Source of the DNA: Bacillota bacterium
Lineage (GTDB): Bacteria > Bacillota > Limnochordia > Darwinibacteriales > Darwinibacteriaceae
Length of the DNA: 35,640 bases
Assembly: GCA_012521295.1 (NCBI GenBank)
Contig: JAAYMS010000107.1
Span: forward strand, 1-35,640
Reading direction: 5' to 3'
The notes under the pieces are model-generated. The model ran no database searches, was not told where the DNA came from, and worked only from the letters and a program-made list of their open reading frames with translations. The translations under genes were made by a program, and so were the position numbers. Below are positions 461 to 16,980 of the stretch, in pieces (the stretch's first letter is position 1; each line of letters opens with the position of its first letter).

Positions 461-491
461 ACAGGCACAGATGAAGAACGGAGGGATTAGA

Positions 492-1679
492 GTGACGATT
501 CGCAGAGCTTGGTTCACCATTACTCTTGTTGTACTATCGTTGTTTGTCACAGGGCCGCTACCGGTCTTCGCACAAAACGAGGAGCCTTTGGTAAACCTGT
601 TCTTATTTGACACGGACATTCGTGACGCACTAACAGAAATCTCGATGCAGACGGGTGTGACTATTATTCCTGATCAAACAGTCAGCGGCCTGGTAACCGC
701 CGACATTCAGGACGTTCCGCTCGAAAGAGCCCTGCGCATGATCCTAATCGGGGGTGGATTTACATACCGCAAGGTGGACGATTTCTACTTTGTCGGACTC
801 CCCGATCCACGCAGCATAACGTTTGGCGAACTAGTTGATTCAGAGATCATTACTCTGCAGAACACAACTGTAGGGCAGGTAATGAAAAATATGCCTTCGT
901 TCTTGTCTTCCTATATCACTGGCGACCAGAACAGCAGTATTCTCACGGTAACTGCTCCGCCAGCACAGCTAGAAAGGATTAAGGTTTTGATTGACCAGCT
1001 CGATAGGCCTAACAAGCAGATAGAGGTGCAGGTTATTATCACGGAAGTTTCTTCAAGCGTAGTTAAAGACATTGGCCTAAATCTTTGGGAATACACGGCT
1101 AGTGCCGGCCAGAAGAAAAACGATAACTGGGAAGCTGTTCTTGGCCTCACTGACGGCATTATTGCTATTGAGACGAACATCTATGGCAGGCTGCTGGCCA
1201 ATCTAAAGCTCCTTGAGGAGAACCACGCAGCCAAGATCCATGCCGATCCCAAAGTTGTCGTAGCCAACGGTGAAACGGCTGAGCTGTTCATTGGAGACCG
1301 GCGGATTTTATTGGTCAACGGGGGAGAAACCTCATCGACCCGGGTTGAACGGCTAGAAGTGGGGATGACCTTAGCGGTTACTCCTACCATCGTCGGCCGG
1401 GATCAGATTGTCTTGGAGATTAAGCCGGAAATCAGCCACTTCGTTAATGAAGCGCAACCTGATTTGGTGGTGAAGGAGTCAGCGTTGTCTACTACCATTA
1501 CATTGGTTGATGGACAGACCGCGCTGCTGGCTGGAATGACCATGCAGGAGGGAGGAGACTACAGCAGCAAGGTTCCTATTCTAGGAGACATTCCCTTCTT
1601 GCGGTGGTTCTTCAGAAACGATGTTGACCGCCAAGAGGAAAAGGAATTGCTGATCTTCGTTACTCCTGTAATTCTCTGA
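492..1679 (+). CDS. Secretin (GspD/PilQ-type outer membrane channel)
   Basis: Secretins form multimeric gated channels in the outer membrane for type II/III secretion or type IV pili. GTG at 492 is the likely start because GGAGGG at 480-485 lies 6 bases upstream; an ATG at 471 overlaps that site. In the 395-residue product, 1-28 is a signal peptide ending VFAQ. Residues about 35-101 are an STN/N0-like domain, 112-172 an N1-like domain, and 175-395 the secretin core. The core carries the hallmark VPILGDIPFLRWFF (361-374) and a terminal LLIFVTPVIL. It is short for the family: one extra N domain, and no S domain for a pilotin. No secretion ATPase, inner-membrane platform or pilin gene is nearby, so the machine it serves is unknown. 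It implies an outer membrane. Confidence 0.93.
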   Translation: MTIRRAWFTITLVVLSLFVTGPLPVFAQNEEPLVNLFLFDTDIRDALTEISMQTGVTIIPDQTVSGLVTADIQDVPLERALRMILIGGGFTYRKVDDFYFVGLPDPRSITFGELVDSEIITLQNTTVGQVMKNMPSFLSSYITGDQNSSILTVTAPPAQLERIKVLIDQLDRPNKQIEVQVIITEVSSSVVKDIGLNLWEYTASAGQKKNDNWEAVLGLTDGIIAIETNIYGRLLANLKLLEENHAAKIHADPKVVVANGETAELFIGDRRILLVNGGETSSTRVERLEVGMTLAVTPTIVGRDQIVLEIKPEISHFVNEAQPDLVVKESALSTTITLVDGQTALLAGMTMQEGGDYSSKVPILGDIPFLRWFFRNDVDRQEEKELLIFVTPVIL

Positions 1680-1693
1680 GGAGCTGACTGCAA

Positions 1694-2932
1694 TTGACTC
1701 TTAGACATATGGCAGGTTGGCGAAAACTTGTGTTGCTCACGCTGATCGTTATCCCAGCGTATAGCAGCATAGCTTGGGCTGATGATCAAGGAGAATGGAA
1801 CCACGATATTGCCCGCCAATTAGCGGCAGAGGGCTGGGAATATGTTTCACAGCAGGAGTTTCCGTTGGTGTTGTATGGAGTTCAAGTAGTGGAACTCGAC
1901 AATGAGATCGCTGCTTACGCAGAGCTCGCTCTTGGGGCGGAAACAACTGATGATGGTCATTCCAACTGGGCCATTAGTGCTTCGGAGAGGCTTCTGCAGG
2001 TGGTTTCTCAGCATCTCGAGATGCGTTTGCAGGGACGGGATGATCAGGATATCAGCTATCTAAATAACGTAACATGGCTGGGAACCGTTTTGGGAAAACC
2101 TGTGTCCATTGCATCCAGGCAAGAAGCACCGACAAATGGTGGGAGCAGAAGCCATTTTGAACTAACCATAACACCGAGACAGCTCGAACCCGTCACGCAG
2201 CGGATCCAGACGGACATCGAACTTGAGTATGAGGCACAGGATGGGAGTACGGCCAACGTGGTGCTGACAGCCTGGGCAGGAGTTGATGAACCGTGTCCAA
2301 TCGCACTGGTTTCTTTTTCTCAAACAGAAAAGAGTATAACCTTAAACAAGCACTTTGCCTTATTACTGTGGGCCGTGGTCGTACCGATAGATGACTATCC
2401 GCCGGAAGTTCCATTAATGAAAATGGGTAACCTGCACGCTCTGAGTACTTTGGTGGACCAGATGCTGACTCAGTCAAGTGGTTCTCGGGATATCACACAT
2501 CTAGTCGCCCTTGGAATCTCTACCAATGGTGAAGGTGTGGGCTACAGCGCACAGTATAGAGGCCTAATTGAGGAAGGATTGGGCGTTGCTGTGCTGGTTC
2601 AGGGGGATCCAACGGACTCTGGACCCACAGTTTCCTTAGGTGCAGTTGACCAAGTGGAGGTTTGCGATAGCCTAGTCATGAGAGCGTACCTCTTGCCGTT
2701 TGTATGGGACATAGCTCACAGCGAGTTTAGACGAGAACTCCAGGGCGGCCTAGAAGCCGATCTGACTCGGGGAAAATGGAGTCTCAGTCTAGGAACACAG
2801 TATTTGGGCAACAGCTGGAGGTTCTCGACAGCAGTGAGGTACAGAGTTTATGAAAAAGCTGCCTTCGAAATAGGGGCATCGGTAAAGGGTTCCCGCTATT
2901 TGATGTCAACTGCGTTGTCAATAGAACTATGA
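1694..2932 (+). CDS. Secreted protein with an outer-membrane barrel-like C-terminus
   Basis: I do not recognise a family. The TTG at 1694 follows GAGGAG (1678-1683) by 10 bases; the in-frame ATG at 1709 would be too far. The 412-residue product has a signal peptide (cut near IAWA-DD). Residues about 280-412 alternate polar and hydrophobic residues in short strands, such as SLSLGTQYLGNSWRFSTAVRYRV, typical of an outer membrane beta barrel, although the last residue is L rather than F or W. The middle (about 125-230) has a faint resemblance to a secretin core: a GKPVSIASRQ stretch followed by LTITPRQL and DIELEY, in the same order as in the neighbouring secretin. It starts 14 bases after the secretin stop, so the two are almost certainly one operon. 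It may be a partner or pilotin-like accessory of the channel; this is inference. Confidence 0.7.
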   Translation: MTLRHMAGWRKLVLLTLIVIPAYSSIAWADDQGEWNHDIARQLAAEGWEYVSQQEFPLVLYGVQVVELDNEIAAYAELALGAETTDDGHSNWAISASERLLQVVSQHLEMRLQGRDDQDISYLNNVTWLGTVLGKPVSIASRQEAPTNGGSRSHFELTITPRQLEPVTQRIQTDIELEYEAQDGSTANVVLTAWAGVDEPCPIALVSFSQTEKSITLNKHFALLLWAVVVPIDDYPPEVPLMKMGNLHALSTLVDQMLTQSSGSRDITHLVALGISTNGEGVGYSAQYRGLIEEGLGVAVLVQGDPTDSGPTVSLGAVDQVEVCDSLVMRAYLLPFVWDIAHSEFRRELQGGLEADLTRGKWSLSLGTQYLGNSWRFSTAVRYRVYEKAAFEIGASVKGSRYLMSTALSIEL

Positions 2933-2964
2933 AATTCGACCTTTCTTGCCTTGATCAACATTAT

Positions 2965-3005
2965 GAGCCCGCTTTTCGAATCTACGAAGGCGGGCTCTTG
3001 CTGTT
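2965..3005 (+). terminator. Probable intrinsic terminator after the secretin operon
   Basis: GAGCCCGC (2965-2972) pairs with GCGGGCTC (2990-2997) around a 17-base loop, followed by a weak T-rich tail (TTGCTGTT). It lies 33 bases after the stop at 2932. Confidence 0.65.
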
Positions 3006-3020
3006 CCAATGATATTGTGG

Positions 3021-3060
3021 AAATGTTAAGTAATGTCACGAAATGTTGGTATTTTGTCAG
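3021..3060 (+). promoter_or_regulatory. Four 10-bp helically phased direct repeats upstream of the SARP-type gene
   Basis: Consecutive decamers starting at 3021, 3031, 3041 and 3051 share AATGT or close variants (ATGTTA, ATGTCA, ATGTTG, TTTGTCA), so the same base edge recurs every helical turn. SARP regulators are known to bind short direct repeats near promoters. The position 86 bases before the regulator start suggests an autoregulatory operator. Confidence 0.5.
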
Positions 3061-3145
3061 GAGGAACGCGCAGGTAATAAAAGGAAAAGAACTAGTGAAC
3101 CGTACTATCCTGGCTGTGTAACCGATTGGCATGGAGGGATCGATT

Positions 3146-4348
3146 GTGACTGTGAACTCTACGGGAAGGTTAAAGCTTCTGTTGCTCGGTTCTTTTCATG
3201 TGGAAATCGACAACCGAGAAATCCCCCTAGAGTGTTGGAAGTCAAAGAAAGCTTTGATGCTGTTCAAGTATCTTGTGGTGCGCTGCGGAGAAAAAATCCC
3301 TAGTGACGTGCTTGTGGATTTGCTCTGGCCCGAGAACGATGGCGAAAGTGGAAGTCACAACTTGCATACGACGATCTATTTCCTGCGGAAGACCCTCAAA
3401 GAGGCTTCGGCTCTACAGGATGTCAGCTCGCAGATCCGATTTGCCAACGGTCTGTACTGGTTCCATAAAGAGGAAGAGGATTTTGTGGACACGATCCGAT
3501 TCATCGCTTTGTGCCGCCGCAGTGAACAGTCGGAGGATAGCGATCCAGAAGAAGCTTTGGATGCGGGTTTGAAGGCATTGAGTCTTTATCGCGGAGATTT
3601 TCTGGCCGACGAACCTTATTCTGATTGGACAGCAAATGATCGTGCTTACTATCGCGAACACTACATAGAAGCGGCACTACGGACAAGCAGGCTCCTTGCT
3701 GAGCACAAGAAAGAGTACAAACGGGCTATTCGCATTTTACGGAAAGCCCTTACTATTGAGCCGTATCGGGAAGAACTGCATCAAGTTGTGATCCGTTACT
3801 TGCTGGATTCTAAGCGCTATCCGGAGGCGGCAGCTCAGTATAGAATTTGTGCGGAAGTGCTGCAGGAAGAGTTTGGCTTAGAACCCAGCGCAGAAACGCG
3901 CGCTCTGCTCAATCGAATTCGAGATACGTCTGATATCAAGGACCTTGTCGATGGGTTAGAAGTGTGTCCATCTCGGGGTCCTTTAGTATGTGAACCCAGT
4001 GTATTCGAATCTATCCTTCAACATGAAAGACGTCGTCTTGAGAGGGTCGGTAAGCCACTTACGATTGTTTCAATTTCCATCAAACATAAGCATGGAATGA
4101 GTCTTGCAGCCGAACGAGTTCTCGATGTCGTAACGCAGACCCTGCGAAAGGGTGACGTGGTATGCCGTTTGTCTGGTGAGTCTGTGGCAGTTCTGCTCCC
4201 ATCGACGAACGAATTTGCGGCGCCTGTCGTTATTCAGCGTATCCGGCGGACGTTAGAAGCGGCAAGTATCAGCGGCTATCAGCTGAGGCACTTTGTCGTG
4301 AAAGGTGGTTCACCGGCTGCAGAGCGGGAACTAGTGAACAGTTTGTAG
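3146..4348 (+). CDS. SARP/BTAD-type transcription regulator fused to a degenerate GGDEF-like domain
   Basis: GTG at 3146 is preferred because GGAGGG at 3133-3138 is 7 bases upstream; the ATG at 3131 overlaps that site. The 400-residue product opens with an OmpR-like winged-helix DNA-binding domain (about 8-108; LLWPENDGESGSHNLHTTIYFLRK is characteristic, written here only as a region at 59-82). Residues about 112-260 are a helical BTAD/TPR domain. Residues 285-385 resemble a GGDEF fold with RLSGESVAVLLP (341-352) where active diguanylate cyclases have RLGGDEFAVLLP, so it cannot be catalytic by the usual mechanism; it might sense a nucleotide or only mediate contacts. It stands alone between the secretin operon and the secreted-protein genes, so it is a plausible regulator of both. 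Phased repeats at 3021-3060 may be its own operator. Confidence 0.85.
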   Translation: MTVNSTGRLKLLLLGSFHVEIDNREIPLECWKSKKALMLFKYLVVRCGEKIPSDVLVDLLWPENDGESGSHNLHTTIYFLRKTLKEASALQDVSSQIRFANGLYWFHKEEEDFVDTIRFIALCRRSEQSEDSDPEEALDAGLKALSLYRGDFLADEPYSDWTANDRAYYREHYIEAALRTSRLLAEHKKEYKRAIRILRKALTIEPYREELHQVVIRYLLDSKRYPEAAAQYRICAEVLQEEFGLEPSAETRALLNRIRDTSDIKDLVDGLEVCPSRGPLVCEPSVFESILQHERRRLERVGKPLTIVSISIKHKHGMSLAAERVLDVVTQTLRKGDVVCRLSGESVAVLLPSTNEFAAPVVIQRIRRTLEAASISGYQLRHFVVKGGSPAAERELVNSL

Positions 4349-4461
4349 GGTTTCTCCCCCTTACCTGCAGTTTGAGTGTTTTTTGAGAGCACTTTAATCT
4401 GTCTTTGACTGCCTTGGAGTAAGTTGAACTGACAAGGTTGTTTCGTTGGGAGGGTTCTGTG

Positions 4462-5376
4462 ATGGTTCCTCAGTTTAAGGAGTGTGGACAAGCAGTTGTT
4501 GCCGTCTTCCTCGTAATATGGGTTTCGCTCTTTTTCGGGACGTATCAGGCCTCTGCTGATCCCGGACATTATTTTGTGAATCCCACAAATGTTACCATTT
4601 CTGTCGATTGCCCAACAGACGATAAGTGGATCATAGGTGAAGTCATCGATATAAGCCGGAAAGACAAATATGGCAATGGTAACGAACACGGGAACCCAGG
4701 GAACGGCCGCAATGATCCTCTGAAATACAGCGCTTTGATCCCGGCGGAACTGAAAGGACTGGTCTATCTTCGGATAAATGGTCAAGAATCGTTGCCACTG
4801 GGGAACGAGAAGATTACTGTCGTGAAAAACGGAGAAGACCATGCAGCGCTTGAGTTCCTGTTAGATCCGAGGATCATCTGGCAGAATGCTGGAGAGTACA
4901 CGGTACTACTAGAACCAAATGGGAACAAGGCACCAACTATTGAACTGGTCATCATCGTCCGCAAATACGCTCGGATAAAATCAGTTCCCGATATTGTGAC
5001 AATCGAAGCCACTGACGGTCCGGGACGCTACTTTTCGAAACACGTGCAATTCGTCGTGGAAGCAAATCACTCGCACTGGAAACTGGATCTCATTGCTGAC
5101 GATCTGCAGCATGAAGACTCTGAAACCTCTGCTGTTGTTAAGCCCAGTGAGCTTCTTATGGCACTTGTGACCAACGAAGATGTGGGAGAATTCGTTCCAT
5201 TTGCAAGTGAAGACCGCTGGACTGCGACAGTGGGGCGTGTTATCAACCCGAGGGATTGTACCAGAAGAGGTAAGGATTATACTACCACCGCTTGTTTTGC
5301 AGTTGATGTGGGTTGGCACCATTTGGCTGGAATCTACAGCGGCCGGATACACGTTACTCTTGTGGAGAAGAATTAA
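4462..5376 (+). CDS. Secreted Ig-like beta protein, function unknown
   Basis: ATG at 4462 follows GGGAGGG (4448-4454) by 7 bases. The 304-residue product has a signal peptide (hydrophobic core VVAVFLVIWVSLFFG, cut after ASA). There are two beta-rich parts, about 34-165 and 170-304. The second ends AGIYSGRIHVTLVEKN, the same style of closing strand as in the proteins at 110-460 and 7072-7704. Only three cysteines are present (C50 and two near 275-283). A glycine/asparagine-rich insert lies near residue 70. It is followed 34 bases later by the large chaperone-like gene, so they probably form one operon. No transmembrane anchor or sorting motif is visible after the signal peptide. A structural surface or fibre role is inferred from context only. 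Confidence 0.7.
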   Translation: MVPQFKECGQAVVAVFLVIWVSLFFGTYQASADPGHYFVNPTNVTISVDCPTDDKWIIGEVIDISRKDKYGNGNEHGNPGNGRNDPLKYSALIPAELKGLVYLRINGQESLPLGNEKITVVKNGEDHAALEFLLDPRIIWQNAGEYTVLLEPNGNKAPTIELVIIVRKYARIKSVPDIVTIEATDGPGRYFSKHVQFVVEANHSHWKLDLIADDLQHEDSETSAVVKPSELLMALVTNEDVGEFVPFASEDRWTATVGRVINPRDCTRRGKDYTTTACFAVDVGWHHLAGIYSGRIHVTLVEKN

Positions 5377-5410
5377 GTGTTCATCATATTTAGAGTAGAG
5401 GTGGATCTGA

Positions 5411-6949
5411 ATGGAAAAACGCCTGGGCAACACCATGCTGACCATTACGACGCTGGTTCTTTGTGTGGCATTATTTAGTCTGTCAGTCTCTGCTGTTGGG
5501 GTCCGTCCACTGGTGATTGACCTGGATATGAAGCCGGGCGAAACGAAGAGTTTTGAACTAATTCTTACTCCTAGTGATAGGGAGGAAACTGTTAATCTGT
5601 CGTTCTATGAGCCGGTTCAACTACTAAACGGCAGTTTAGCCTACCAAGAACCGACGCTCACATCTTTTTCTTCTGTTAGTTGGGTTACTCTCGAGAAGGA
5701 CCAAGCTCGGGTTTTTCCCGGTGAAGAGGTGAGAATAAATGGTACGGTCCGAGTACCGTTTTCTGCTGGTGGCTCCCATACTGTGGTGATCATGGTGGAG
5801 CCAGAGGTACCCACTACGGGGCAAGGAATTACGTTTCAGGTGCGTTATGCTGTGCGCCTGAACATAAGAGTGGAGAGGCCTGGCTTGAGACAGACGGCAG
5901 ACTTAGTTGGTTTGGAACTCATTCCCGGTGAAAAGCAGGAACCTCTTGTTCGTGCTGTTGTACACAACACGTCTGCCTGGGACTATCTAGTTTCTGGAGA
6001 AGTGACGATTCGAGATGAAGAGCGACGCTTAGTCGAACGTGTGAATTTGACTGCCCAGGCTTCCGCGGGCTCTGGTGCAAACCAATTACGCATGTATCCT
6101 GGCAGTCAGGTAGAGTTTCTCGGTGAGATAACAAAGAGGCTCAGTCCGGGAGAGTACAACCTACGGACCTTTATTAGATTTGGCGACCATGGTCAGATTG
6201 TAAGAAGTGAGACCATCACAATCGCGGAAGGCGATTTTCATTTCCCCACAGCTGATGAGATAGGGGCGTTTTCTGTAGCACCGACAGTAATTGAGCATCG
6301 TGTTAGAGCGGGCGAAAGGAAGAGTCAAGTACTGGAATTTGTAAGCGAAATCGTAGAATCTTCTATGATTACGGTGGAGATGCAGCCGGTAACTCGTGAT
6401 TACCCTTATTCCCTTGTGGACTGGGTGGAGTTTCGGACACCGACCACTCAATTTGAACTGCCTGGCCGCAGAACTAGTCGCTTGGGTATGACAATTGCTG
6501 TTCCTCGAGATGTACCGGATGGTAGTTTCCACGGTAATATCTTCGTTAGGGCTCATTCGATTGAGGGAGAGCTGCTGACTGAAAGGATAGTTCCAATTTC
6601 AGTCTTGGTTGGGACGAATCATGACTATGATGTCGATGTACGCAGTCTGCATGCCGAGGTTGTGGAAGGGGTCGAGACTATTCTGTCGCTGGATATTACC
6701 AATATAGGCAATGTACCGTTAACTCCACAAGCCAACATCGTCTTGACGAATGCTGACGGTGAGTTCGTCGATCGAGCGATCTTGACGCTTCCAGAGGGTG
6801 AACATACGGTTATTCCGTTGATGAGTCAACGGCTTGACGGTTCTATAGTTGAGCTCGAAGCGGGCGTTTATGGAGCAGAAATCACAATTCAGAACGATGG
6901 TCAGATAATCGCATTGGTAAATAGGGAGTTAGAGGTGGACGCGGATTGA
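5411..6949 (+). CDS. Large secreted protein of two chaperone-like plus Ig-like modules
   Basis: ATG at 5411 follows GAGGTGG by 6 bases. The 512-residue product has a signal peptide (about 1-28) and then an internal duplication. Module 1 (29-272) begins VGVRPLVIDLDMKPGETKSF. Module 2 (286-510) begins FSVAPTVIEHRVRAGERKSQ. Each continues with a SWV or DWVEF strand, a VRVP or IAVP strand and a glycine turn, then an Ig-like domain of CARDB/NEW3 style. The first half of each module resembles PapD-type pilus chaperones and the DUF916 (WxL) domain in strand order. That is a pattern resemblance, not a proven match. No anchor follows the second module. It may assemble or hold the neighbouring small secreted proteins. 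It is the last gene of the 4462-6949 pair. Confidence 0.72.
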   Translation: MEKRLGNTMLTITTLVLCVALFSLSVSAVGVRPLVIDLDMKPGETKSFELILTPSDREETVNLSFYEPVQLLNGSLAYQEPTLTSFSSVSWVTLEKDQARVFPGEEVRINGTVRVPFSAGGSHTVVIMVEPEVPTTGQGITFQVRYAVRLNIRVERPGLRQTADLVGLELIPGEKQEPLVRAVVHNTSAWDYLVSGEVTIRDEERRLVERVNLTAQASAGSGANQLRMYPGSQVEFLGEITKRLSPGEYNLRTFIRFGDHGQIVRSETITIAEGDFHFPTADEIGAFSVAPTVIEHRVRAGERKSQVLEFVSEIVESSMITVEMQPVTRDYPYSLVDWVEFRTPTTQFELPGRRTSRLGMTIAVPRDVPDGSFHGNIFVRAHSIEGELLTERIVPISVLVGTNHDYDVDVRSLHAEVVEGVETILSLDITNIGNVPLTPQANIVLTNADGEFVDRAILTLPEGEHTVIPLMSQRLDGSIVELEAGVYGAEITIQNDGQIIALVNRELEVDAD

Positions 6950-6998
6950 CTGGTCCCGTTGGCCTCCAAGGGTCATTTGCTAGTGTCTGCGTGACAGC

Positions 6999-7043
6999 AA
7001 AAAAAGGAGGGTAGTGTCTCAAATACTGAAAACACTACCCTCT
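6999..7043 (-). terminator. Strong intrinsic terminator for the 7072-7704 gene
   Basis: On the minus strand an 11-bp perfect stem (7032-7042 with 7007-7017, arms GAGGGTAGTGT) has a 14-base loop and is followed by CC and seven T (7005-6999). The plus strand has no T run after the hairpin, so it serves mainly the minus-strand gene. Confidence 0.9.
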
Positions 7044-7071
7044 GAATTAGCATAGTCTACTTTCTGAAAGC

Positions 7072-7704
7072 CTAGTTACCCAACGCCTCAATTGTCATGG
7101 TAATTCTACCTTCATACGTACCTGCTTTCACGTTATACCAATCCCGTTGGGCCCAGTCTTCTCGTCTCTGTGTACTCTGACCTTGCTGATAATTCTGGTT
7201 ATACCATCCGATACCAACGACTAGCCTTCCTTCATGTATGCCGGGTGAAAAAACATATTCTGCCCGTGCATAGCGCTGTCCAGGAATGCCCCAATAGTCA
7301 AACCCCGATTTAGGCTTGAAACCGTCAGCAAGCAGAACCGCTGTGTGTAATCCATCGTTATTTGTAGCGAACTGACCAGTTAGGTCTTCGGTCAGAGTGA
7401 TTTTTATCTCAGTGTTGGTTCCGAAAACGAATGGTCGCCTAATATTATAGGCATCACCACCTATAGACGGGGTTTCGAGTACGAATCTCATCACTGACGT
7501 ATCTAGTTCAGCAATATGCACAAATGGCACTACTTCTACCTGTACGTCAATCCCCTTGTCAATTATCCCATTGGCAGGAAGATCATTCCTAAGGGGTACT
7601 GTCGGATAATATCGTTCATACTTCAGATTCGGTTCATTAGCCAACACAACTGAGCCAATACCCGTGATTAGTATCAACGCCAGGAATAACGCTAACTTCT
7701 TCAT
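7072..7704 (-). CDS. Secreted beta-sandwich protein, function unknown
   Basis: The 210-residue product starts at ATG 7704, six bases after AAGGAGGAG. It has a clear signal peptide (MKKLALFLALILITGIGSVVLA-NE) and no lipobox or anchor. The mature part is beta-rich, with QVEVVPFVHIAELD, EIKITLTEDLTG and a closing AGTYEGRITMTIEALGN. That last strand is shared in style with the proteins ending at 460 and 5376. It has no cysteine in the mature protein and a Q/N/W/Y-rich stretch (YNQNYQQGQST) near 165-177. It converges with the chaperone-like gene and is ended by its own strong terminator. A surface or fibre subunit is the most natural reading, but I recognise no family. Confidence 0.7.
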   Translation of the reverse strand: MKKLALFLALILITGIGSVVLANEPNLKYERYYPTVPLRNDLPANGIIDKGIDVQVEVVPFVHIAELDTSVMRFVLETPSIGGDAYNIRRPFVFGTNTEIKITLTEDLTGQFATNNDGLHTAVLLADGFKPKSGFDYWGIPGQRYARAEYVFSPGIHEGRLVVGIGWYNQNYQQGQSTQRREDWAQRDWYNVKAGTYEGRITMTIEALGN

Positions 7705-7892: not shown

Positions 7893-7921
7893 TTGCCAAA
7901 AATAGTCAGTTGTAGTATAAT
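7893..7921 (+). promoter_or_regulatory. Sigma-A promoter for the c-di-GMP riboswitch transcript
   Basis: TTGCCA at 7893-7898 and a perfect TATAAT at 7916-7921 are separated by 17 bases. Transcription would start near 7928, just before the riboswitch aptamer. Confidence 0.88.
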
Positions 7922-7943
7922 ACAGTTGATATTTAGGACAAGC

Positions 7944-8032
7944 TTCTCGATAAAGGCAAACTCATCGAAAGGTGAGGGCGCAAAGCCACAGGCCTAAGAC
8001 CTTCGTGGTGATGGCGGCTGGGCTGCCGAAGG
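7944..8032 (+). promoter_or_regulatory. Cyclic-di-GMP-I (GEMM) riboswitch aptamer
   Basis: The segment carries the conserved GEMM-I elements in order: GGCAAA (7955-7960), a hairpin with a GAAA loop (CTCA/TGAG arms, 7961-7976), GCGCAAAGCCAC (7978-7989), GGCCTAAG (7991-7998), then a helix CCTTCG (8000-8005) with CGAAGG (8027-8032) enclosing the GGCGGCTGGGCTGCC receptor. The known Vibrio Vc2 aptamer has the same arrangement. It follows a strong promoter and precedes a terminator and a secreted-protein gene, so it should couple that gene to c-di-GMP level. Confidence 0.93.
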
Positions 8033-8049
8033 AAGTGCAGGAAAGGATT

Positions 8050-8083
8050 GCCTGTCATTCCCTTCGGATTGACAGGCTTTCTT
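8050..8083 (+). terminator. Riboswitch expression-platform terminator
   Basis: GCCTGTCA (8050-8057) pairs with TGACAGGC (8070-8077), followed by TTTCTT. Its loop contains CCTTCGG (8061-8067), exactly complementary to CCGAAGG at 8026-8032 in the 3' side of the aptamer. This offers an alternative pairing that would compete with both the aptamer helix and the terminator. Confidence 0.8.
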
Positions 8084-8120
8084 CGAGTGTGTTTCGAACA
8101 TAGGCTTTGTACTACTGACA

Positions 8121-8179
8121 CCCACCAGCTTGTCCTTGGACAAATCGTGAACTCGCCCAAAGGTGGGCAGAAGATCACG
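8121..8179 (+). other. Structured leader between terminator and coding region
   Basis: TTGTCC/GGACAA (8130-8143) forms one hairpin. CGTGA/TCACG (8146-8150 with 8175-8179), enclosing GCCCA/TGGGC (8155-8168), forms a second. CCCACC (8121-8126) could alternatively pair with GGTGGG (8162-8167). The remaining leader up to the ribosome binding site at 8217-8224 shows no other recognised element. Confidence 0.45.
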
Positions 8180-8230
8180 TGCCTGTTAGTGTTAACTCAC
8201 GGGCGGCGGATTACCCAAGGAGGGATTATC

Positions 8231-8707
8231 ATGAGGATGCGTGGGTCATTGCATGTGGTGCTTGTGTTAACCGTATTATTAGGATTCAGCAGTCTCTCAA
8301 ACGCTCGTGTACTAGATAAAGTTGAGATAAAGGTTAGAGTAAATGTCCCAGTAATTCAGCAGCTTGAAATCATCGAACCGGTAGCAGTAAGCTTCAGTTA
8401 TCCCTGGGCAGGTGCAGAAAATGGACAACCTCTAATCTTCCACGACGTTGGCGATGTGTTGGTTCGCAGCAACGCAGATTGGTCGATGGCAATAGACTCA
8501 ACGGCTAGTAGCGGCTTTCGCGTTTGTGTGCGGCCTAGTGGTGAAAGGTTTGCCCAGTGGGTACCAGCCAACGGGTTGACGAGTCTTTATGGATCCCAAG
8601 GCATGAGCAATTTGAGCTGGGATGTGAGGATTGAACCACCACAGAGTACTGAGGTGGCAGCCGGGCACCAGACCGTACGATTTTCCCTGACTATCGGGCA
8701 CATGTAA
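8231..8707 (+). CDS. Secreted beta protein controlled by a c-di-GMP riboswitch
   Basis: ATG at 8231 is 6 bases after AAGGAGGG. The 158-residue product has a signal peptide (cut near SNA-RV), then a beta-rich domain with VEIKVRVNVPVIQQLEI, VLVRSNADWSMAIDS and a final VRFSLTIGHM. Its SN-x-W strand and overall layout resemble secreted fimbrial or coat-type subunits, but I cannot name a family. It has one cysteine. The product of 110-460 aligns by eye with its C-terminal two thirds. Its mRNA has a promoter at 7893, the GEMM-I aptamer and an early terminator, so expression should switch with c-di-GMP, as expected for an adhesin or matrix component. A strong terminator follows, so it is monocistronic. 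Confidence 0.82.
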   Translation: MRMRGSLHVVLVLTVLLGFSSLSNARVLDKVEIKVRVNVPVIQQLEIIEPVAVSFSYPWAGAENGQPLIFHDVGDVLVRSNADWSMAIDSTASSGFRVCVRPSGERFAQWVPANGLTSLYGSQGMSNLSWDVRIEPPQSTEVAAGHQTVRFSLTIGHM

Positions 8708-8731: not shown

Positions 8732-8764
8732 GGACTCACTCCGAACGGAGTGGGTCCTCTTTTT
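8732..8764 (+). terminator. Strong intrinsic terminator
   Basis: GGACTCACTCC (8732-8742) pairs with GGAGTGGGTCC (8747-8757), allowing one T-G pair, around a four-base loop, and is followed by TCTTTTT. It ends the riboswitch-controlled gene. Confidence 0.92.
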
Positions 8765-15189: not shown

Positions 15190-15285
15190 ACCCATTATAT
15201 GGACAGGAATTCCTGTAGCCGTGGCGAAGAAGTTTAATAGCTTTTGCTTAAGATGGCCAGTGAGGTTAGGAGGAGTTCGGTCCAG

Positions 15286-16980
15286 ATGATGGATGGGAAC
15301 AAAACACGCCAAGAGCAGCAGCAGACTTCCACGTCCCTAAACTGGCAAGAGATCGAGGACGTACTCCGTGACTATAAGCTTATGGTTGATGGAGCTAGTG
15401 ACGGGTTATGGATTTACAATGTTAGTTCTGATCGCTATAACGTGTCTAAGAAAGACCGCGAGCGTTTTGATTTCGATCCTAACCTAGAAAGCTACTCCCT
15501 TGCCGCGTGGCAGGAGCTGCTGCATCCAGACGATGAGCCGCAGGCTTTGGCGACGTTTGTGGCTTTCATGGAAGGGACCAGCAACGTCTACGAAAATACA
15601 TATCGCCTGCGCACGCGGGACGGCTCCTACCGTTGGGTGAAAAGCCACGCGATTGCAGATCGAGCTGCTGACGGCACGATAATCAGCATTGCCGGGAGCC
15701 ACAGCGACATTACCAGTGAGATCGAGCAGGAGCGGTTGCTGTATAGGTTGGCTTACTACGATGATCTGACAGAGCTGCCTAACCGCACAAAACTGCGGCA
15801 TGACTTTGACTCTCTCAAACGTGATGGCATGGCTTTCCTCTTCATGGATGTGGACGATCTGAGCTATGTCAACAGTGTCATGGGTTATGACGCTGGGGAT
15901 AGGATCATCAGAGAGATAGCGGGGCGTTTCAGAGCTCGCTACGGCGCGGCACACTATGTGGCGAAACTGGATTCTGACCAGTTTACAATGCTGCTGTTTG
16001 ATGTCGACGACATCGAAAAGGAATTGACAGGACTGCTCGAAGAGATTCGATCCATACCCTTTTTAGACGATTCGGCTCTTCATGTGACGCTGAGCGTTGG
16101 GGTTTCGTTCTATGGCCAGCATGGAACCAACTATGATGATCTTCTCCGCCGGGCTAATACGGCGCTGTACTACGCCAAGGCCAACGGTAAGGATCAGTAC
16201 CAGATATACCAGCCGGCTATGGAAACTTACGCTTATCTGTACATAGATGGTGTCAAGCAGATAAGAAGAGCTCTCGAAGAAACTCAGTTTGAGATGCACT
16301 ACCAGCCTATTATCAGTGCCGCGACCGGTAACGTTGCGGGCCGGGAGGCTCTTCTCAGATGGAATCATCCACAAAGGGGACTGGTTTCGCCAGCGGAGTT
16401 TATCCCATTGGTAGAGCAGTCCAAGCAGATGCTTGACCTGGAGCGCTGGATCTTTGAAGCTGTTTACAAGCAGTATGCTGTTTGGTCTTTGAAGGAGCGC
16501 AGCGGCTGGTTCATGTCTATTAATCTTTCAGCCCGCGGCCTAATCACAAATGATATTGTCGGTTACTTGGATTATCTTACAGAGGAATACGAGGTTGAGC
16601 CTAGTTATGTGGAGCTGGAGATCACAGAGACTGCTCTCCTAATCAACGCTGGACAGACGCTAGAGGCCCTCAACCAACTGCATGAAAAAGGATTTCGTAT
16701 CGCACTTGATGACTTTGGTACTGGATACTCATCCCTCCATTATCTGCGGACTCTGCCCATTGATATGGTTAAACTAGATCGGAGTTTCGTGAAGTCTGTA
16801 GAGTTCGTCGAGAAGGATAGGGTCTTGGTAAGTTCCATAATCGATCTGGCCCACCGCATGGGATTGACGGTGGTAGCCGAAGGAGTAGAAACGCCCTCGC
16901 AGGACGGACTTCTGCGAGAGCTCGGATGCGATCTTATGCAGGGGTATTATTACGGACGGCCCCATCCGGCTTATCTCTAA
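15286..16980 (+). CDS. PAS-GGDEF-EAL protein, probable c-di-GMP phosphodiesterase
   Basis: ATG at 15286 follows AGGAGGAG (15268-15275) by 10 bases. The 564-residue product has a PAS/PAC sensor (about 28-148, with YRLRTRDGSYRWVKS), a GGDEF domain (152-310) and an EAL domain (322-564). The GGDEF site reads DSDQF at 229-233, so cyclase activity is not expected; it may bind GTP as a sensor. The EAL domain keeps the catalytic set: REALLRW (353-359), NLS (413-415), ELEITE, ALDDFGTGYSS (473-483), KLDRS, VAEGVET (530-536) and MQGYYYGRP. It should therefore hydrolyse c-di-GMP. It has no membrane segment, so it is cytosolic. It is a single gene, with a terminator on each side. It is the natural local counterpart to the GEMM-I riboswitch at 7944-8032. 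Confidence 0.93.
   Translation: MMDGNKTRQEQQQTSTSLNWQEIEDVLRDYKLMVDGASDGLWIYNVSSDRYNVSKKDRERFDFDPNLESYSLAAWQELLHPDDEPQALATFVAFMEGTSNVYENTYRLRTRDGSYRWVKSHAIADRAADGTIISIAGSHSDITSEIEQERLLYRLAYYDDLTELPNRTKLRHDFDSLKRDGMAFLFMDVDDLSYVNSVMGYDAGDRIIREIAGRFRARYGAAHYVAKLDSDQFTMLLFDVDDIEKELTGLLEEIRSIPFLDDSALHVTLSVGVSFYGQHGTNYDDLLRRANTALYYAKANGKDQYQIYQPAMETYAYLYIDGVKQIRRALEETQFEMHYQPIISAATGNVAGREALLRWNHPQRGLVSPAEFIPLVEQSKQMLDLERWIFEAVYKQYAVWSLKERSGWFMSINLSARGLITNDIVGYLDYLTEEYEVEPSYVELEITETALLINAGQTLEALNQLHEKGFRIALDDFGTGYSSLHYLRTLPIDMVKLDRSFVKSVEFVEKDRVLVSSIIDLAHRMGLTVVAEGVETPSQDGLLRELGCDLMQGYYYGRPHPAYL

Follow-up and report, generated by a model that had tools for sequence, protein, structure and literature searches.

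A class I OFF switch of the same architecture as the leader described here has been published for Cd1 of C. difficile (PMC9262584). The class I switches of this organism tested in reporters were uniformly OFF, and its class II switches are ON (PMC6200980). Class I aptamers also occur in tandem: 347 c-di-GMP-I doublets have been reported (PMC9481103), and B. thuringiensis carries the tandem Bc3-5 (PMC4759541). A GEMM-I leader can be locked whatever the ligand, as in Bc1 (PMC11218506), a precedent that counts against reading such a leader as a switch. A change of G20 to A accompanies cGAMP binding (PMC6274999). The riboswitch class itself is well understood; new in the present locus are the family of its target gene, a decayed tandem partner of the aptamer, and a two-class arrangement in relatives.

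The window, i.e., the whole stretch of DNA analysed (35,640 nucleotides), contains a leader (7893–8231) which is very probably a transcriptional c-di-GMP-I OFF riboswitch (Table 1). All elements named in the first-pass annotation, namely the promoter before the aptamer, the full GEMM-I aptamer, the terminator, and the downstream gene of a secreted protein (Sec-type signal peptide recognized by eye), were found at the coordinates it gave. Promoter sites with at least nine of 12 consensus matches are expected by chance 1.4 times in a 1150-base region. The covariance-model search that the annotation had proposed as a check, and whose failure it would have counted as a refutation, returned a match to RF01051 over its full length (1–87, P1/P2/P3 architecture) with 83 bits at a cut-off of 35. 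Clade model R1, built from 35 GEMM-I aptamers of relatives, gave 95 bits for aptamer 1, which is itself a member of R1; no sequence from 8090–8230 was included in this model. P2 carries a GAAA tetraloop (CGAAAG loop at 7966–7971). On these sequence grounds, the stretch 7946–8031 was confirmed as a c-di-GMP-I (GEMM-I) aptamer with c-di-GMP as the predicted ligand. The leader terminator (8050–8077) is composed of GCCTGTCA-T-TCC-CTTC-GGA-T-TGACAGGC, then TTTCTT; it was absent from the listing of a consensus terminator scan. The U tract behind it is interrupted, which counts against the switch reading.

Table 1. Features of the leader, the target gene, and the upstream gene cluster in the window.
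Feature	Position	Strand	Details
Pilin-like gene			First in cluster order, before secretin
Secretin	471–1679
Cluster gene	1694–2932
BTAD-GGDEF-like regulator	3131–4348
Cluster gene	4438–5376
WxLIP-like Ig protein	5411–6949
Pilin-like secreted gene	7072–7704		Inverted in the window
Sigma-70-like promoter	7893–7921	+	TTGCCA-17-TATAAT, 11/12 consensus matches
c-di-GMP-I (GEMM-I) aptamer 1	7946–8031	+	P1 7946–7949 with 8027–8031; P2 7961–7976
Antiterminator, 15 bp	8026–8067	+	8026–8032/8061–8067, 8034–8037/8056–8059, 8038–8041/8051–8054; MFE, ensemble, and duplex folding
Intrinsic terminator	8050–8083	+	8050–8057/8070–8077 plus 8059–8061/8066–8068, then TTTCTT; −17.6 kcal/mol (fold, scored by script)
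Degenerate second GEMM-I aptamer	8133–8221 (model match 8135–8218)	+	Clade model R1
Shine-Dalgarno (SD) sequence AAGGAGGG	8217–8224	+	6 nt upstream of ATG 8231; read from the sequence
Target gene	8231–8707	+	158-aa secreted beta-sandwich protein, undescribed family
Terminator 3' of target gene	8732–8757	+	11-pair stem and T run; single-gene transcript

The first-pass annotation had derived the switch from the complementarity of CCGAAGG (8026–8032) with CCTTCGG in the terminator loop (8061–8067), which was supposed to block the terminator. Both motifs are present at these positions, but the 7-bp loop pairing is only the outer part of a 15-bp antiterminator. As the entire switch this pairing was rejected, because it uses mostly loop bases and so would not clearly block the terminator. 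It is the inner 8 bp, AGTG/CATT and CAGG/CCTG, that block the terminator by taking its 5' arm. As a whole, the antiterminator sequesters one P1 strand together with the 5' arm of the terminator. When the two exclusive states were folded, the ensemble energy was −61.2 kcal/mol with the antiterminator vs. −56.0 kcal/mol with P1, P2, and the terminator, i.e., ligand-free folding favours the antiterminator by about 5 kcal/mol. In ensembles of the growing transcript, with ligand binding energy not included, the probability of the antiterminator was 0.94 at 8067 and 0.92 at 8085; that of the terminator was 0.07 when the transcript reached 8085. Pairing between the P1 3' strand and the terminator (its 5' arm and loop) was better than in dinucleotide shuffles (p = 0.004). 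P1 and the terminator were compatible in folding, and each was incompatible with the antiterminator. The OFF switch proposed by the annotation is well supported by these data, and more strongly than the annotation had seen; we infer its sign from the folding.

The aptamer, the terminator, and the alternative helix are present in the leader, and we infer that they are used as a ligand switch in the following way. Transcription would start near 7928, and RNA polymerase would make the aptamer first. With c-di-GMP bound, P1 would be held and CCGAAGG kept within the aptamer; the terminator would then form and transcription would stop. Without ligand, the P1 3' strand would pair with 8051–8067 once 8067 has been made, and the 15-bp hairpin would occupy the terminator 5' arm, allowing read-through by the polymerase and synthesis of the secreted protein. 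Ligand binding would stabilise P1, whose 3' strand is also used by the antiterminator.

This pairing between the P1 3' strand and the terminator (5' arm and loop) was also analysed against dinucleotide shuffles in 13 terminator-type leaders, for which the sole selection criterion was a target gene homologue behind the leader. It was better than in the shuffles (combined Fisher p 4e-6, for leaders which are partly related and not independent), with modest p-values for single leaders. Pairing was kept despite differing sequences: CCGAAGG/CCTTCGG, CGAAAGA/TCTTTCG (L101), GGGGAA/TTTCCT (L038), and CCGAAGAGA/TCTCTTTGG in L142 and L148. Nine leaders were folded over their whole length; in three of them (L094/L100, L083, and L038), the antiterminator was not favoured by the free-fold ensemble. 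In translational GEMM-I leaders of this gene family, the SD lies inside P1, and OFF is predicted as well. In alignment A2 (columns 11–40), GGTAA...ACACAAAG is found in many aptamers next to an SD, and GGCAA...ACGCAAAG in most of those of the terminator type; GGTAA/GGCAA and its partner form a covarying pair tending to separate the two positions.

The second aptamer, which the first-pass annotation had missed, lies between the terminator and the start codon, at the position occupied by an intact second aptamer in tandem relatives (L017, L033, L102, L103, L104, L107, L142, and L148). Its match to R1 had 23.8 bits (E 2.3e-4), with the next plus-strand match in the 35.6 kb at 9.4 bits. The possibility of an intact second aptamer was rejected: Rfam searches of 8080–8260 revealed neither such an aptamer nor any other family even at E 5, and the decayed one was seen by the clade-specific model only. 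It reads AAATCgTGAAC where AAAGGCAAAC is expected; with AAATCgT in place of AAAGGC, the ligand-site sequence is no longer intact, and we consider this aptamer decayed. Outside the modelled part, a P1-like helix of TCCTTGG (8133–8139) and CCAAGGA (8215–8221) pairs perfectly (−11.7 kcal/mol, p 0.046) and covers half of the SD; the fold z of the region was −2.4. Where an aptamer adjoins an SD, the core of the SD is paired with the 5' strand of P1, with modest single p-values. In tandem relatives, a terminator typically accompanies the first aptamer, and SD masking falls to P1 of the second, so that both levels point to OFF; no U tract was found behind the first hairpin of L017 and L033. A possible decayed second aptamer in G031 (L100, 1399–1487) scored only 6 bits and is suggestive by eye only. 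The leader of the window probably arose from tandem GEMM-I aptamers, the second of which masked the SD and then decayed. This second aptamer may have a new specificity, or it may be on its way to permanent SD masking or to a different signal. Pairs of intact and decayed aptamers constitute a set for studying riboswitch loss.

With the second aptamer clearly degenerate and its P1 still covering half of the SD, the leader could also be locked, as Bc1 is: the second aptamer would mask the start or the first would be unresponsive, and the gene would be constitutive or silent. We regard this as unlikely, since aptamer 1 is intact by both the Rfam model and R1, the clade model that includes it, and in the MFE fold of 8128–8236 a local hairpin (TTGTC-CTTG-GACAA) frees the SD strand. 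GEMM-I ON switches, in which c-di-GMP prevents termination, do exist, e.g., pilM (PMC9262584) and Cdi-1-1, the gene of which increases with c-di-GMP (PMC6200980), and surface proteins are often c-di-GMP-induced. In pilM, however, the P1 3' strand belongs to the terminator, whereas in the window it lies outside and upstream of it (8026–8032 vs. 8050–8077) and the terminator coexists with P1 in folding, which makes an ON switch very unlikely here. Still less probable is that the leader responds to a dinucleotide other than c-di-GMP, either 3',3'-cGAMP or the one bound by the c-di-GMP-I-GGC variant (RF03167), because, although RF03167 was placed first by the E-value ranking of Rfam (74.8 bits, above its cut-off of 59, E 4e-16), RF01051 was higher in bits (83), the window has GCAAAG (7980–7985) and not GCGAAG, in which, by our reading of the RF03167 consensus, a diagnostic G takes the place of the first A, and the position changed in cGAMP switches is G here (G7956 in AAAGGCAAAC, with the G20 numbering carried over by us from Vc2). 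The GGC label was thus rejected and aptamer 1 filed as an ordinary c-di-GMP-I.

The genome encodes 10 GGDEF and two EAL domains as well as flagellin. One further GEMM-I element (C120; L005, 1–77), cut by the contig end, is located before a gene of a methyl-accepting chemotaxis protein and has a strong terminator behind the aptamer. A PAS-GGDEF-EAL protein (15244–16980), likely a c-di-GMP turnover enzyme, is encoded 6.5 kb from the riboswitch gene. In relatives, GEMM-I was also observed directly before genes of secreted proteins that contain curlin-like QxGxxN repeats (L052, L054, L055, L056, L067, L069, L070–L074, L086, and L090); other GEMM-I elements of the clade precede Flp pilins, flgB, and DUF342/FapA-like and HD-domain genes.

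The target protein had no sequence relative in Pfam, NCBIfam, or PDB. Its model is a predicted 8-strand beta sandwich (pLDDT 79.5), for which the best folds found by Foldseek were the pilins PapA (E 4e-4) and CfaB, both weak, with TM below 0.45. Homologues were accepted at E below 1e-9 or when located directly behind an aptamer, which yielded 20 besides the window (G008, G002, G029, two copies in G031, G026, G047, G023, G045, G041, G211, G391, G304, G051, G024, and G136; loci L142, L148, L158, and L174). GEMM-I precedes 19 of the 21 genes, a proportion that is not unbiased, as some homologues were found through their aptamer; among finds of the protein search only (E below 1e-9, phylum sample), the proportion was 9 of 11. 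No GEMM-I was detected upstream of the second G031 copy (L114) and G024 (L106) even with a permissive search. G136, with its own E-value of 1e-4, was counted by the adjacent aptamer, and L148 is truncated at the end of its contig. Weak partial matches without GEMM-I (L109, L110, L111, and L113) were left out of the count. Locus L152 has a weak GEMM-I not followed by a gene of this family. The family is undescribed; its secreted members come from Bacillota, namely Limnochordia, Halanaerobiales, and unclassified MAGs, and are almost always encoded behind a class I switch.

The target gene is the last one of a conserved and undescribed cluster, the other genes of which lie upstream (471–7704) and encode a secretin, a BTAD-GGDEF-like regulator, a WxLIP-like Ig protein, and pilin-like proteins. 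The gene order is nearly identical in L117 and L119, and parts of the cluster are conserved in L115, L118, L120, L122, L126, L127, L128, and L130. A secretin together with WxLIP-like neighbours was seen in named MAGs of Bacillota, in Limnochordia, and in Halanaerobiales (among them Halanaerobacter jeridensis). The regulator, conserved in the cluster, is a fusion of BTAD with a partial GGDEF domain; since SGESV stands where the GGDEF signature is expected, it is probably inactive as a cyclase. The model of the WxLIP-like protein matched WxLIP structures of E. faecium (TM on the search target 0.57–0.61).

In seven clusters of relatives (L115, L117, L118, L120, L121, L158, and L174), the target homologue lies behind a class I element, and a gene of another small secreted subunit behind a c-di-GMP-II riboswitch. 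In L117, L118, and L174, the latter gene is related to 7072–7704 of the window (phmmer 6e-7 to 2e-5, tiny database). The P1 5' strand has a potential alternative partner in 12 of the 13 class II leaders examined, namely a second copy of the P1 3' sequence that lies further downstream and extends into the SD (CCTCATTGG with CCAATGAGGAGG; −14.5 to −21 kcal/mol, p ≤ 0.006). This pairing is stronger than P1. Ligand-bound P1 would free the SD, so ON is predicted, namely in all of the seven clusters except L121. With class I OFF and class II ON, c-di-GMP would reduce one subunit and increase the other. We tentatively suggest that c-di-GMP possibly swaps surface subunits in the secretin/WxLIP-like clusters, class I shutting off the target homologue and class II turning on the other subunit, and that the window keeps the OFF half only. 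A c-di-GMP-II element before the inverted neighbour 7072–7704 was considered and rejected, as none was detected even with permissive settings. No description of the two-class arrangement was found in the literature searched, which is not proof of its absence. Two RNA classes that respond to one second messenger and choose between surface subunits would make a concrete testable case.

Compared with known systems, the target model weakly resembles the folds of chaperone-usher pilins (PapA, CfaB), but the target has no sequence family match, and a secretin is encoded in place of an usher. Its protein 5411–6949 resembles the E. faecium WxLIP of WxL/WxLIP loci. As in known tandem c-di-GMP-I riboswitches, the leader of each of the eight tandem relatives contains a pair of class I aptamers, and most of these relatives have two control levels, comparable to the SAM-II/SAM-V pair that PMC4759541 cites; in contrast to them, the second aptamer of the window has lost the ligand-site sequence. 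The c-di-GMP-I OFF switch Cd1 (Cdi-1-3) before flgB of C. difficile and the leader of the window have in common a class I aptamer, terminator strands separate from P1, an antiterminator that uses the P1 3' strand and excludes the terminator, a terminator that tolerates P1, and a predicted OFF response. Unlike Cd1, the window leader has a decayed second aptamer behind the first, and the gene behind it encodes a small secreted beta-sandwich protein, where Cd1 has the flagellar operon.
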